From Rothia sp. (in: high G+C Gram-positive bacteria) (lineage in GTDB: Bacteria; Actinomycetota; Actinomycetes; Actinomycetales; Micrococcaceae): 45,743 nt of DNA. Numbering within the stretch: position 1 is the first letter of the stretch; every line of letters starts with the position of its first letter. This document shows positions 42,014-45,743 of this stretch, piece by piece. The DNA lies in contig JAUNHE010000011.1 of assembly GCA_030524105.1 (NCBI GenBank), forward strand, positions 1-45,743, written 5' to 3'. The notes below the pieces were generated by a model. That model saw nothing but the letters and a program-made list of their open reading frames with translations. It was not told the origin of the DNA and did no database searches. The position numbers and the translations under genes are program-made.

Positions 42014-43576
42014 CTAGCTGATGAGCATGTGTGGGGCTGTCATGGCTGCCTCCACCATACGTTGAACTTGTTCTTCACTCTCAACGGTGCCATCGCTTGG
42101 GGAAGCACTTAAAACTGTCTGTTCGTCTCGCGCGGTTGCGTAGAGGGCTATGGCGTCAACAACTGCCTGGCTGTTTGCCTCGTAACCAGAGAGGTACTGG
42201 AAGATAGCTTTTGCTGCGTCGGTGAGGCTGGTTTTTCCTATTTCGATACCTGCGCAGGAGCTCCAGGTAATAGGGTTTGCCCAGTTAGCAAGGCTATCTA
42301 CTGAGTCTCCGTCCCATTTACTGACGTAGTTTGCATAGCGGTTGAAGCTGGACAGGCCCGCATAGCTGACAGAGTTGATCCATTCTTCGGCGTCTAGGGG
42401 GTAGCCATTGGTTGCCGGTGCATCAAAGGGCATGCCGCCGGTATCGTATTTGAGGGTTAAAAACATTTTGTAGAGGGGGGCTGTGATGGTATCCGGGTTG
42501 CTGACATCGTGGTAGCCCTTGAGCTCCAGCTTGCCGCTGGCTAGCATGGAGCAGAGCACGGCCCAGGGGCGTCGGATGGTTTGGCCTCCAGAATTTTTAA
42601 ACTCTTGGGAGGTGAGCAGTTCTCGTAGAACCGGGCGAATCTCGGTGTCGTTGCTGGTGTAGGTTGTGGCCAGCCTTTGTGCTAGAGCCTCGTAGTCACC
42701 CTCTTGGCCGATAAAATACTGGATCAGGCGGCGGGCTAGGCGTAGGCCGGTAAAGCGATCACTGGCTAAGTGGTCGGTGAGCTCACGGACGGTCTTGTAG
42801 ATGTCCTCTGTTGTTGAGCCGGAGTTGGCAAATGTTTTGCCGGCAACGGTGAGCTCACCAAAGTAGTGCAGCTCTGGCTTAGCTTCGGTGAATTTTTCTG
42901 CCACGTTAGCGCCTAAGCCGGTGAGGAGTTTAGAGACAGAGATTACGTCTTCTTGGCTGTAGCCTTTTTCTGGGCCCCAGGAGTGCAGTTCCATGAGCTC
43001 GCGGCCCATGTTTTCGTTGAGGGCAAATTGGGTATTGGTGTTGTTATCTAGAAAGATAGCCATGGTTTGGCTGGTGGCGATGTTGTAGAGCAGGTCTTTG
43101 TATTTGCCCAGGGCGCCGTCAAAGAGCATGGCAATGTAGTCGTGGTAGCCGTCGGGGGCTTTTTCGATGGTTGCTGCTAGAACATCTGCCCAGAAGAGTG
43201 CCATGTTGGCCTGGAGCTGTTTTTTACTAGCCCAGAGCCGGTGCAGTGCCGATTCCAGCACGTAGACGCTGACCTCGTAGGGGTGGCTTCTGCGAGAGCT
43301 GGGCTGGTAGGTGTCCCAAAAGGTTTTGTCCAGGGTCTTGTTACCGCTGGGTGCGGTAAAGGTGCTGGGAAAGAGTGCCTTTCTCTCTCGTTCGTAGGAG
43401 GGGCTTTCTGTTATTCCTTCTGGGTTGAGCTGTTCTTCGAGCCAGGCGTCAACGCCGCGTTGGGCTATGTAGTCAGCCCATTCTTGGGTTGCTGCTAGGT
43501 TGATCTTGCGAGCGTAAAACCAGCTTTCGCTGGAGGTAAGATTTGTTTCGGTCAGATACTTAGAGACGAAATCCAT
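42014..43576 (-). CDS. DUF1800 protein
   Basis: A 520-residue DUF1800 protein, the usual genomic partner of DUF1501. The family signature NENMGRELMELHSWGPEKG is at about residues 188-206, and helical segments YVLESALHRLW and ALFWADVL precede it. There is no recognisable signal peptide: the sequence opens MDFVSKYLTETNL. Since DUF1501 does have a Tat signal, the two may be exported together as a folded complex; that is inference. The ATG at 43576 has no clear ribosome-binding site. Function of the family is unknown. Confidence 0.9.
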   Translation of the reverse strand: MDFVSKYLTETNLTSSESWFYARKINLAATQEWADYIAQRGVDAWLEEQLNPEGITESPSYERERKALFPSTFTAPSGNKTLDKTFWDTYQPSSRRSHPYEVSVYVLESALHRLWASKKQLQANMALFWADVLAATIEKAPDGYHDYIAMLFDGALGKYKDLLYNIATSQTMAIFLDNNTNTQFALNENMGRELMELHSWGPEKGYSQEDVISVSKLLTGLGANVAEKFTEAKPELHYFGELTVAGKTFANSGSTTEDIYKTVRELTDHLASDRFTGLRLARRLIQYFIGQEGDYEALAQRLATTYTSNDTEIRPVLRELLTSQEFKNSGGQTIRRPWAVLCSMLASGKLELKGYHDVSNPDTITAPLYKMFLTLKYDTGGMPFDAPATNGYPLDAEEWINSVSYAGLSSFNRYANYVSKWDGDSVDSLANWANPITWSSCAGIEIGKTSLTDAAKAIFQYLSGYEANSQAVVDAIALYATARDEQTVLSASPSDGTVESEEQVQRMVEAAMTAPHMLIS

Positions 43577-44114
43577 AGGAAGTTAATGGCCTTTGCACTA
43601 GGGGGTATTTGTCCGGCTCTTAAGGTGCGGTGAGTGAGTGGGGTTAGGTTTAGACTGCTCCCGAAGGCAGTGTTTTGCTGATTGGGTTACGCTGGGCGCA
43701 ACAAAGGGACTATTACCTAATTTTTGGGGGTCTAGCTGTTTTGCGGTAACAGCGCTATATGACTTAACAGGGTAAGACTCTACAACAGGATTCAACAACA
43801 TGTCGCATATTCGGCAGGTTCTGATCCAATTCACATGTAACAAGTAGAATTCACCAGAAAAGTGCATATATTTTTGATGTACTTCTCAGGTGAGGAGTAA
43901 GAGCAATCACAAGCTCCCTGAGTATTACGCACAGAAGTCCATCATAGCCCTCCCAGGTCAGAAAAACAATTTATCTGGTCACTACTGATCTGCTCCCGGC
44001 CTAAGGGTCCGTAACTCTGTTGTAGCGCTAACAGTAGCTCGAGGGTTTTTACGATAGAGCTGTAGTATTACCCACCAGGTAAAATAGGCCTTTCAAGCCC
44101 TAGGAAGAATACTT
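43577..44114. other. Upstream region of the DUF1800-DUF1501 pair
   Basis: This 538-base gap holds no gene I can support; an 89-codon minus-strand frame at 43598-43867 looks random. It contains AGCTGTT-ttgcggt-AACAGC near 43730 and the palindrome TACTTCTCAGGTGAGGAGTA (43880-43899, one G-T pair), which may be operators. The right end holds a possible promoter (TAAAAT near 44082) for the small gene at 44115. Confidence 0.45.
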
Positions 44115-44231
44115 ATGAGCAACCTACCAGTAGAGCCCACCCAGGCCGCTGCCGATCAGCAGTTCGAGAATGCAATGGAGGCTGTTCTTGAAGAACTAGC
44201 GGGGGTAAACGCCTTGCTCGCCAATCGGTGA
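44115..44231 (+). CDS. Predicted small protein, 38 residues
   Basis: A short frame starting ATG at 44115 with AGGAAG about 8 bases upstream and TAAAAT a further 25 bases up. The product starts MSNLPVEPTQAAADQQ and continues FENAMEAVLEELAGVNALL, an acidic amphipathic helix; there is no signal peptide or membrane segment. Codon choice resembles the neighbouring genes. I do not recognise the family, and it may be a small regulator or an unexpressed frame. Support is the ribosome-binding site, promoter spacing and composition. Confidence 0.45.
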   Translation: MSNLPVEPTQAAADQQFENAMEAVLEELAGVNALLANR

Positions 44232-44448
44232 GGGTAGCTAGCGCCTCCCCTGATAGAGGGCCTATTTACTTGCCACTCTGCCTGCGCGTCCAGGTATACA
44301 AGGTGGCCTCCGCGCATTAAATACTGGGAGTAAGCGCGGTAACTGCAGATACTCAGCCCTTCTCATCCTTCTATTTTCAGGGGTTTATCTAATACAAACT
44401 AGGCAGTGCTGCTTCTGAATGCGTAGAAGTTTTGACGCCTAATTTAAC

Positions 44449-44493
44449 TCCCCAATCCAGCGCGCTGGCTTACATCAAGTCAAAGCTTGGGGA
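44449..44493 (-). other. Palindromic structure at the 3' end of the Abi gene
   Basis: TCCCCAA (44449-44455) and TTGGGGA (44487-44493) enclose CCAGCGCGCTGG (44457-44468), a perfect 12-base palindrome. It overlaps the Abi stop codon. No T-run follows, so it may be a weak terminator or an mRNA structure. Confidence 0.35.
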
Positions 44494-45445
44494 AAAGTAA
44501 GCCCCACCGAAAATAGTCATTCTGTTCCACCAAATTCCACACAGTGGATGAATACTCGCTATTCCCCTGTAAGTAATCAACCCATGAAGATAAGAGTAAC
44601 AGCACAGAAATGGGCGATTCTCTGGGGTAGAACCTGAAAGGGGGCAAGTTTACCTTGTCCCAAGGCGGTTTAGCAACTGGTCGACTAAGCGTCCGGCCCC
44701 ATAATCGAGAGTGATGGGCTGATATATTTCTAAAGTAGTTGATATTCCCAACTGCTCTTTTCAACTCTGCAACTTTGCGAAAACCAAGGTCTCGCGCCAA
44801 AGAGCTAAGCTGCGAGTCATTTTTCCAGAGGCTAATCATCTTAGAAAGGTCGCCCAACGACATCACTTCAACGACTGCCCACAAGGGCGGGTCTTGGTTT
44901 TTATCCTTAAAATGCTGGAGGAAGATCTCTTCCCTCTCCAACAACTTCTCAATGTTACTCAGCAGGACCTTCCTCGCCCTGGTGTAACCTGCATGCTTCT
45001 TCTTCCAAGATTCCATGGTTTCGCTTGCAGGGGGCTTATTATCTGGTGATCGTGGTTCATACGAACTTCTTAATCTATATTTAGTTGCCCCGTTCTTTCC
45101 TTGCGAAAAGTAGTAGGCCACTTTTGCCCTTAGTAGAGGTTCTATGCTTTGCACACCCTCAAAAACACGTAGACGCAGTTGGGCATCCAAAGAGTAGACT
45201 GTCAACAAAGTTTGGGCTGTTGTACCTGGAAGAAAATAATGTGGTGGTTCTTTAGTTTCGTAGAATTGGCAATAGTAACCGCTGAATCGGTAATAGTTCT
45301 CCCTGGCCAGAAACTCTTGCAGATCTTGCTCTGTTACTTCCCCCAGCCCTAGCCCTCTTTCTATGAGTTTTTGGACCTGCTGCTCATAATTTAGCCAAGG
45401 CTTCTGCGCTGGAACTATATTAGGCATATCACGGGGAGTAAGCAT
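44480..45445 (-). CDS. Abi-family (AbiD/AbiF, Abi_2) HEPN defence protein
   Basis: A 321-residue Abi_2 family protein, related to lactococcal AbiD/AbiF abortive-infection proteins. Family segments are LARENYYRFSGYY (residues 47-59), VYSLDAQLRLRVFEGVQSIE, PPLWAVVEVMSLGDLSKM and a HEPN-type Rx4H motif, RNISAH (239-244), which in HEPN RNases forms the active site. It probably cleaves RNA when triggered. The codon use is more AT-rich than the neighbours. It lies on the same strand as, and 244 bases after, tRNA-Ser, a typical place for acquired DNA. The ATG at 45445 has TATAGA 8 bases upstream and no ribosome-binding site; an ATG at 45427 is the alternative. No partner gene is visible. Confidence 0.85.
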   Translation of the reverse strand: MLTPRDMPNIVPAQKPWLNYEQQVQKLIERGLGLGEVTEQDLQEFLARENYYRFSGYYCQFYETKEPPHYFLPGTTAQTLLTVYSLDAQLRLRVFEGVQSIEPLLRAKVAYYFSQGKNGATKYRLRSSYEPRSPDNKPPASETMESWKKKHAGYTRARKVLLSNIEKLLEREEIFLQHFKDKNQDPPLWAVVEVMSLGDLSKMISLWKNDSQLSSLARDLGFRKVAELKRAVGNINYFRNISAHHSRLWGRTLSRPVAKPPWDKVNLPPFRFYPRESPISVLLLLSSWVDYLQGNSEYSSTVWNLVEQNDYFRWGLLFPKL

Positions 45446-45640
45446 GGGTTAAGTCTATAAAAACTCCGGAGTATGCGGCACAGAATGACGAATCACCTTA
45501 CAAACAAGATGTTTGCCCACACACTACGGAGCAGAATGTTGCTCCCATTCTATGTGCTCGCGGTCCAATCTGCAACAACCAGCAGTCAAGTTCCTCCCTC
45601 TCACTTCCGCCAGCGACAGAGCCCCCGCTAGAGGGGTAAT
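45446..45640. promoter_or_regulatory. Promoter region of the Abi gene with palindrome and alternative hairpins
   Basis: On the minus strand TATAGA (45459-45454) is the likely -10. Behind it lies the perfect palindrome ACTCCGGAGT (45463-45472), in the position of the promoter spacer. Further upstream, GGAGCA (45528-45533) can pair with TGCTCC (45540-45545), or AGAATG (45533-45538) with CATTCT (45546-45551); the two hairpins share bases and exclude each other. CAAAC-aagat-GTTTG lies near 45501-45515. This 195-base stretch has no protein gene and could contain a small RNA. Confidence 0.4.
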
Positions 45641-45683
45641 AAAAACCCCTGTCTCTCCTAGCTAACTAGGTGAAACAGGGGTT
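45641..45683 (-). terminator. Terminator after tRNA-Ser
   Basis: AACCCCTGT (45644-45652) pairs with ACAGGGGTT (45675-45683), with an inner CCTAG/CTAGG stem. On the minus strand it follows the tRNA and ends in TTTTTATT. Confidence 0.85.
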
Positions 45684-45688
45684 CTTGC

Positions 45689-45743
45689 TGGCGGAGGATG
45701 GGGGATTTGAACCCCCGAGGGCGTGAACCCAACACGCGTTCCA
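45689..45743 (-). tRNA. tRNA-Ser (anticodon GGA), partial
   Basis: The 3' part of a class II tRNA runs off the window edge. Minus-strand features: encoded CCA at 45691-45689, acceptor strand ATCCTCC plus discriminator G, a T arm with GGTTCAAATCC, a long variable arm TTGGGTTCACGCC, and the 3' half of the anticodon arm, where TGGAAC precedes the GCGTG stem. This matches actinobacterial tRNA-Ser(GGA). The 5' half is outside the window. Confidence 0.85.

Follow-up and report, generated by a model that had tools for sequence, protein, structure and literature searches.

The Abi_2 gene and its surroundings

The stretch of DNA analyzed here, referred to as the window, is the whole of contig C7 (45,743 bases) from a 2.19-Mb Rothia genome. 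On its minus strand it carries a gene for an Abi_2 (AbiD/AbiF-type) HEPN protein of 321 amino acids (abi, 44480..45445), which is preceded on the same strand by a predicted small structured RNA (45459..45544, 5' end presumed) and is examined here together with that RNA as a candidate toxin-antitoxin module. A first-pass annotation of the sequence had placed the gene on the same strand as a tRNA-Ser gene and had described it as AT-richer than its neighbors. Both observations were borne out, as the minus-strand 3' part of a tRNA-Ser(GGA) gene (45689..45743) is cut by the contig end, and abi has a G+C content of 0.460, lower than that of the window (0.533) and of the two genes next to it (0.537 and 0.572). 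The gene-free gap of 195 bases reported between the two genes is correct only if the terminator hairpin of the tRNA (45641..45686, minus strand) is excluded; from the abi start to the tRNA end the distance is 243 bases.

The assignment to the AbiD/AbiF type was confirmed with Pfam (Abi_2, E 2.3e-39, 136.1 bits against a cut-off of 25.6) and PADLOC (AbiD, E 7.8e-42). The predicted catalytic Rx4H motif is present as previously read, RNISAH (R239-N240-I-S-A-H244), and R239, N240, and H244 are invariant across 28 aligned Abi_2 proteins, a set that includes the window protein and three orthologues, as are K15, L46, Y51, R53, Y57, D87, E102, and W189. A sequence search of the PDB gave three matches at E up to 1, of which only 8VZ6 is credible (Abi family protein, E 2.8e-17; entry title 'PbAbiF dimer bound to ncRNA'). 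The same entry was retrieved by fold with an AlphaFold2 model built from a shallow alignment of 4 sequences (pLDDT 70, pTM 0.67), and the window protein has a PbAbiF-like fold at a sequence identity of 21-22%. The PbAbiF/AbiFr complex in 8VZ6 was reportedly described by Zilberzwige-Tal et al. in Cell in 2025. By analogy, the window protein is a probable RNA-cutting self-toxin of the AbiD/AbiF phage-defense family.

The orthologues, in R. nasimurium and R. nasisuis, are 52-53% identical to the window protein. A wider search of contig sequences found no orthologue in a first scan and only four R. nasimurium/nasisuis loci in a second, and a search of viral contigs found none. Among 394 genomes of the class searched at E 1e-25, only two besides the window's own genome were listed, at about 1e-26. 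Plasmid and phage matches did not exceed about 32% identity among the best 20 of 300 and the best 20 of 33 records.

A predicted branched leader RNA ahead of abi

The leaders of abi in the window and in the orthologues share a series of elements: a -10-like hexamer (TAGAAT at 45547..45552 in the window, TAGACT in the orthologues), the 11-mer GAGCAACATTC (45544-45534), a long stem interrupted by one 1x1 mismatch, a T-tract (45463-45459), and then the ATG, 13 bases beyond the T-tract in the window and 15 bases in R. nasimurium. The long stem consists of P1 (45532-45527/45468-45463) and P2 (45525-45517/45478-45470), and it encloses the hairpins P3 (45516-45510/45506-45500) and P4 (45497-45493/45488-45484), all on the minus strand. 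When the window leader and those of four relatives (two of them identical) were folded individually, all showed the basal stem, the mismatch, and the second stem. The three-way junction with two hairpins was obtained for the window and for all of these relatives except L005, in which both hairpins are fused; the loop of the second hairpin is UUCG in the window and in G018 or UCCG. The window fold surpassed all 200 shuffled sequences, and the folds of the relatives were equaled by 3, 3, 2, and 0 shuffles. The comparison of the intergenic space with that of related strains, proposed in the first-pass annotation, therefore gave a 70-nucleotide (nt) structure common to the window and the orthologues, directly upstream of the predicted toxin gene and on its strand in both lineages compared. 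The leader holds this single structure, and a repeat search gave no direct repeat with both copies there.

The smaller elements named in the first-pass annotation were less durable. The 10-base palindrome ACTCCGGAGT is present at 45463-45472 as the 3' arm of the much longer stem. Two 6-bp hairpins can form in the window (45551-45546 with 45538-45533, and GGAGCA with TGCTCC), but neither is kept in the orthologues: the first is missing from their predicted folds, and their sequences cannot form the second. The terminator scan lists a counterpart of the GGAGCA/TGCTCC pairing on the opposite strand, as 7 pairs. An anti-terminator acting through this pairing was considered and rejected, as the pairing is not conserved in the orthologues.

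Upstream of the -10-like hexamer, TTGCAG (45570-45575) is a possible -35 element with a poor match. A second possible -10 element lies ahead of the ATG, in TAGACT-TAACCC (45446..45457), and its orthologue counterpart is TAAAAT-TTAGAC-ATG. Since no Shine-Dalgarno sequence was seen before the abi ATG and the -10-like TAGACT/TAAAAT lies six bases upstream of it, abi may be transcribed from a promoter of its own into a leaderless mRNA. These signals bear on the explanation that the RNA is a cis attenuator only, its stem limiting read-through into abi as a terminator or leader with no contact between RNA and protein. The stem does end in a U-tract 13 bases before the ATG, and in C. difficile a terminator upstream of abiFCd halts most transcription (PMC12373285). 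However, a terminator needs neither a shared three-way junction nor an RNA type that tracks the protein clade, the closest solved relative (8VZ6) is an RNA-protein complex, and transcription from the possible promoter that lies past the terminator, ahead of the ATG, would escape attenuation. We regard attenuation alone as unlikely.

The MAFFT alignment of the two RNA lineages misplaces the 3' arm, and we therefore counted base pairs in a register fixed by hand and in a model-fitted alignment, which itself leans towards the structure. With the register fixed by GAGCAACATTC and the U-tract, 3 pairs of P1/P2 are changed on both sides, 3 on one side, and 6 are unchanged; the 1x1 mismatch is shifted by one between the lineages, and an additional pair of the window lacks a counterpart in the relatives. 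The covariation tool applied to the model-fitted alignment likewise counted 3 doubly changed pairs, a result reached by 9 of 500 shuffles. When a covariance model was built solely from the five R. nasimurium/nasisuis copies, the leader site was its best match in the window (20 bits, E 0.007), with a plain hairpin as runner-up (15.4 bits), and under default filters its sole match was the window's own locus (55 locus records, four repeating others). Local alignment of the window leader with the orthologue leader scored 18, which was reached by 1 of 500 shuffles, and the 49 other Abi_2 leaders scored no higher than 15. A second model, R2, was built from the five copies plus the window and run on 35 Rothia genomes, where it gave no RNA copy away from abi. 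Five of its six strong sites precede an Abi_2 open reading frame (ORF; in two pieces in G018), and the sixth (G012) is followed by the first 9 abi bases and then by different sequence, near a contig end. A repeat similar to GGGTTATAGGACAAAAAGTGTG was observed after these 9 bases (L088).

RNA types across Abi_2 loci

The first-pass annotation had suggested that the leader may hold the Rfam abiF RNA (RF03085). No match to RF03085 was found at the gathering score, nor at E up to 10 in 43600-45743. At the gathering score, Rfam found the other tRNA in the window. The search at E up to 10 gave six matches, all weak, including a partial tmRNA match that corresponds to the end of tRNA-Ser. The two RNAs are alike in being located at Abi_2 genes, and RF03085 occurs at L008, L009, and L027, three other loci retrieved with the window protein. 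RF03085, however, is a hairpin of 37 nt whose consensus includes AAGCCUC and CUCAAAU, whereas the window RNA is branched and unmatched.

We compared 54 Abi_2 loci, which are the best matches listed from the genus, family, order, and class rather than a random sample (5 duplicates dropped). The RF03085 cut-off was reached at 9 of them (L008, L009, L027, L049, L109, L111, L116, L120, and L121), all among the 10 loci assigned to type I below; L028 scored 29 bits, under the cut-off. Upstream of the domain, 45 of the 54 loci have a hairpin with a T-run after it. A stricter rule, applied without the 5 loci that lack an N-terminal start, was satisfied by 42 of 49 Abi_2 leaders; of the shuffled leaders, 147 of 490 passed, and of the other ORFs at these loci, 15 of 78. 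By loop motif, the leader hairpins were sorted into types I and Ib (both abiF-like), II (CCGGUUCCGC...GUCCAGGG), III (UUCAGCCCGC...GGGCUGGAU), IV, V, and VI (the window). These are our own labels, set by pattern, with L117 and L019 assigned to class II by hand after their leaders were read. On a tree of 50 proteins (4 fragments excluded; 5 rows without a class, with 'none' counted as a label), the labels require 9 changes, where 7 is the minimum and shuffled labels average 32.5, and none of 200 shuffles was as low, with the caveat that near-copies among the proteins favor any clustering of labels. Types II, III, IV, V, and VI each lie on one side of a supported branch; types I and Ib require 2 changes each and are hence not single clades. 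This distribution, drawn from sequence comparison, suggests that each toxin clade has its own RNA type.

The 15 of 78 other ORFs illustrate that terminator-like hairpins are common between genes, as would be expected if the Abi_2 protein acted without RNA control and the hairpin were an unrelated terminator left from the insertion. However, the tRNA already has a terminator of its own (45641-45686), about 100 bases before the RNA start, the same RNA precedes abi at a different locus in R. nasimurium, and R2 finds no second site for it in the window's own genome. An unrelated terminator is improbable on these grounds.

Several results nevertheless weigh against treating the leader as a dedicated antitoxin RNA. 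The promoter scan gives no promoter for the RNA or for abi, and the three promoter-like sequences described above are read from sequence, the -10-like hexamer also from the alignment. The terminator scan, which covers loops of 3-8 only, does not list the stem of the RNA. The hairpin scan is permissive, with a shuffled background of 30%. Class VI comprises two lineages, the window and the near-identical R. nasimurium/nasisuis copies, in four distinct rows, and its covariation amounts to one divergence; further pair types were no better than in shuffles (500 of 500). The 6 strong matches of R2 are its own 6 training sequences, which gives no independent support and no new member in the 35 genomes. 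In addition, R2 gave 12 weak matches (20-30 bits, E 0.001 to 0.6) that lack an Abi_2 ORF in the surrounding 1.5 kb or so, and the three that were inspected are plain hairpins with T-runs. Because such matches occur, a score of 20-30 bits is no proof by itself, and position, 11-mer, and fold were weighed together. Much of the case for the RNA rests on its position and the shared 11-mer.

Probable gain of the RNA and abi as a unit

As the first-pass annotation had anticipated, abi is variable among strains: none of 29 other Rothia tRNA-Ser(GGA) loci matched the window protein within 1.5 kb (tblastn, E 1e-3). The 29 loci came from 34 other genomes, with four left out for lack of a fetched locus and one for lack of a match. 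The DUF1800 gene, the left neighbor of the insertion in the window (42014..43576, minus strand), follows tRNA-Ser(GGA) at three of these Abi-less loci (G004, G017, and G018). At the nearest empty site, that of the sister genome G004 (L051), similarity to the window runs through the tRNA and its terminator hairpin to 45634 and returns at 43603, and the module is therefore likely an insertion behind the tRNA-Ser terminator. Integration into the tRNA itself did not hold, as the similarity to G004 extends past the tRNA and no tRNA-derived repeat was found on the far side (43500-45743). A tRNA attachment site was rejected for want of a repeat of the tRNA end.

The orthologues lie at another locus, away from tRNA-Ser, between two genes that we take to be a DUF3151 gene and ald. 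Of 27 DUF3151 loci, 4 have abi (one in two pieces), 1 has the RNA and a cut gene, and 22 have neither. In the five closest empty genomes, ald begins 117-121 bases past the DUF3151 stop versus about 1,315 in abi carriers, and L003, L004, and L005 carry a copy of the DUF3151 3' end (28-31 bases) after the abi stop. This spacing and the copied 3' end indicate that RNA and abi were gained together at the DUF3151 locus. Direct repeats of upstream sequence also flank RNA-abi units of several classes, namely, L028 (78 columns), L002 (50), L003-L005 (28-31), and L030 (26). Some of the repeated sequence comes from the terminator or 3' end of the gene upstream, which looks as though insertion of the unit had duplicated a transcription end. 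The repeats scored 23-57 versus cross-locus control means of 8.7-10.1; at L005 and L030 the control maximum was equally high, near-copies being in the control set. No such flanking repeat was found at the window locus. The abi frame of R. nasisuis is broken and that of G012 is cut, while both RNAs are intact, which is compatible with a costly toxin having been lost while its harmless RNA stayed, although two such cases are no proof.

We give even odds to a broader reading, in which the Rothia RNA would be an antitoxin family missing from Rfam, a single three-way-junction RNA guarding one AbiD/F clade and one of several clade-specific types in the order. RNA and toxin would then travel as a unit of about 1.2 kb that inserts behind transcription ends and, at several other loci, becomes flanked on both sides by the 3' end of the neighboring gene.

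The window shares its last 55 bases with the end of contig C5, which contains the whole tRNA-Ser(GGA) and terminates exactly at its 3' end. There the tRNA lies behind sequence that we read as a dnaX-like gene and an SRP-RNA-like region. From this contig overlap, rather than from reads, the order tRNA-Ser, Abi, DUF1800, DUF1501 would follow. Allowing up to 3 mismatches, a search for the 28 bases at the tRNA end matched the two contig ends and no third site in the assembly. The break in the assembly graph between C5 and C7 may hide an excised or mixed state. Between abi and DUF1800 lies a stretch of about 0.9 kb that has no clear gene and gave no blastn match at E 0.1 among the other loci compared; it contains a 38-amino-acid ORF (44115-44231, plus strand) without a Pfam match. 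The same genome has a second Abi_2 gene (L002/L037, contig C1, 194010-194690), with a type II RNA, beside a tmRNA gene, and in G017 (L010) an Abi_2 gene lies directly behind the tmRNA. Downstream of tRNA-Ser in G018 (L039/L055), an apparent 3' fragment of another tRNA was seen with GGGTTATAGGACAAAAAGTGTG repeats.

The gene, its conserved motif, the fold, the RNA structure common with the orthologues ahead of abi, and the absence of abi from the site in relatives are computed observations. Together they make it probable that the AbiD/F HEPN protein and the upstream RNA form a two-part type III-like toxin-antitoxin or abortive-infection module. Binding of RNA to protein, neutralization, RNase activity, and growth arrest are carried over from PbAbiF/AbiFr and AbiFCd/RCd22, and by that analogy the small RNA most likely keeps the toxin switched off. 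The RNA would be made from its own promoter and end at the U-tract 13 bases ahead of the ATG, fold as a three-way junction, bind the HEPN dimer, and block cleavage of single-stranded RNA, and its terminator-like stem may also restrain transcription into abi. Should the RNA supply fail, for example, upon phage takeover, the protein would cut cellular RNA and growth would stop. The earlier proposal of an RNA-controlled toxin acquired at the tRNA is thereby kept in part: the HEPN RNase-type protein, the structured RNA directly upstream, and the patchy occurrence in relatives stand, and the named structural elements, membership in abiF RNA, and tRNA integration do not.

The module differs in several respects from the systems that it resembles. 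PbAbiF shares 21-22% identity with the window protein, and the window RNA is a 70-nt three-way junction without a match to RF03085. In AbiFCd/RCd22 of C. difficile (PMC12373285), too, the RNA directly precedes the toxin gene on its strand, and a terminator-like stem stands ahead of that gene. RCd22, however, is described there with two abiF motif copies and a terminator distinct from them, and abiFCd with a ribosome binding site in front, whereas the window has one branched structure whose own stem enters the U-tract. The tandem repeats of the antitoxin motif given in the same text for ToxIN-like type III systems do not occur in the window leader. Such repeats do not define the AbiF branch, since each PbAbiF monomer binds one AbiFr (PMC12737573). 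Covariance models of AbiF RNAs by Zilberzwige-Tal et al., with one file named 'diverse', are cited in PMC12804078, and RNA diversity at AbiF loci has therefore already been examined; the window RNA type may be among those modeled. None of the titles and abstract openings listed in searches of the literature on AbiF/AbiD/Abi_2 RNA antitoxins describes it. PMC12165695 and PMC12737573 propose AbiD/F as the ancestor of Cas13, and the RNA could accordingly guide the HEPN protein to RNA targets and not only inhibit it. However, no part of the RNA varies in the manner of a spacer: the five copies from R. nasimurium/nasisuis differ in 3 of 92 columns, and a guide function seems very improbable.

If the Abi_2-linked RNAs are real, most of them would be invisible to standard annotation, as the curated Rfam cut-off detects abiF RNA at only 9 of the 54 loci. 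If the clade-specific reading is true, the RNA type would represent the antitoxin specificity of each toxin clade. Since Cas13 has been proposed to derive from AbiD/F toxins and the RNAs paired with them, swaps of toxin and RNA between clades could then probe both the specificity of antitoxin RNAs and the route from antitoxin to guide.
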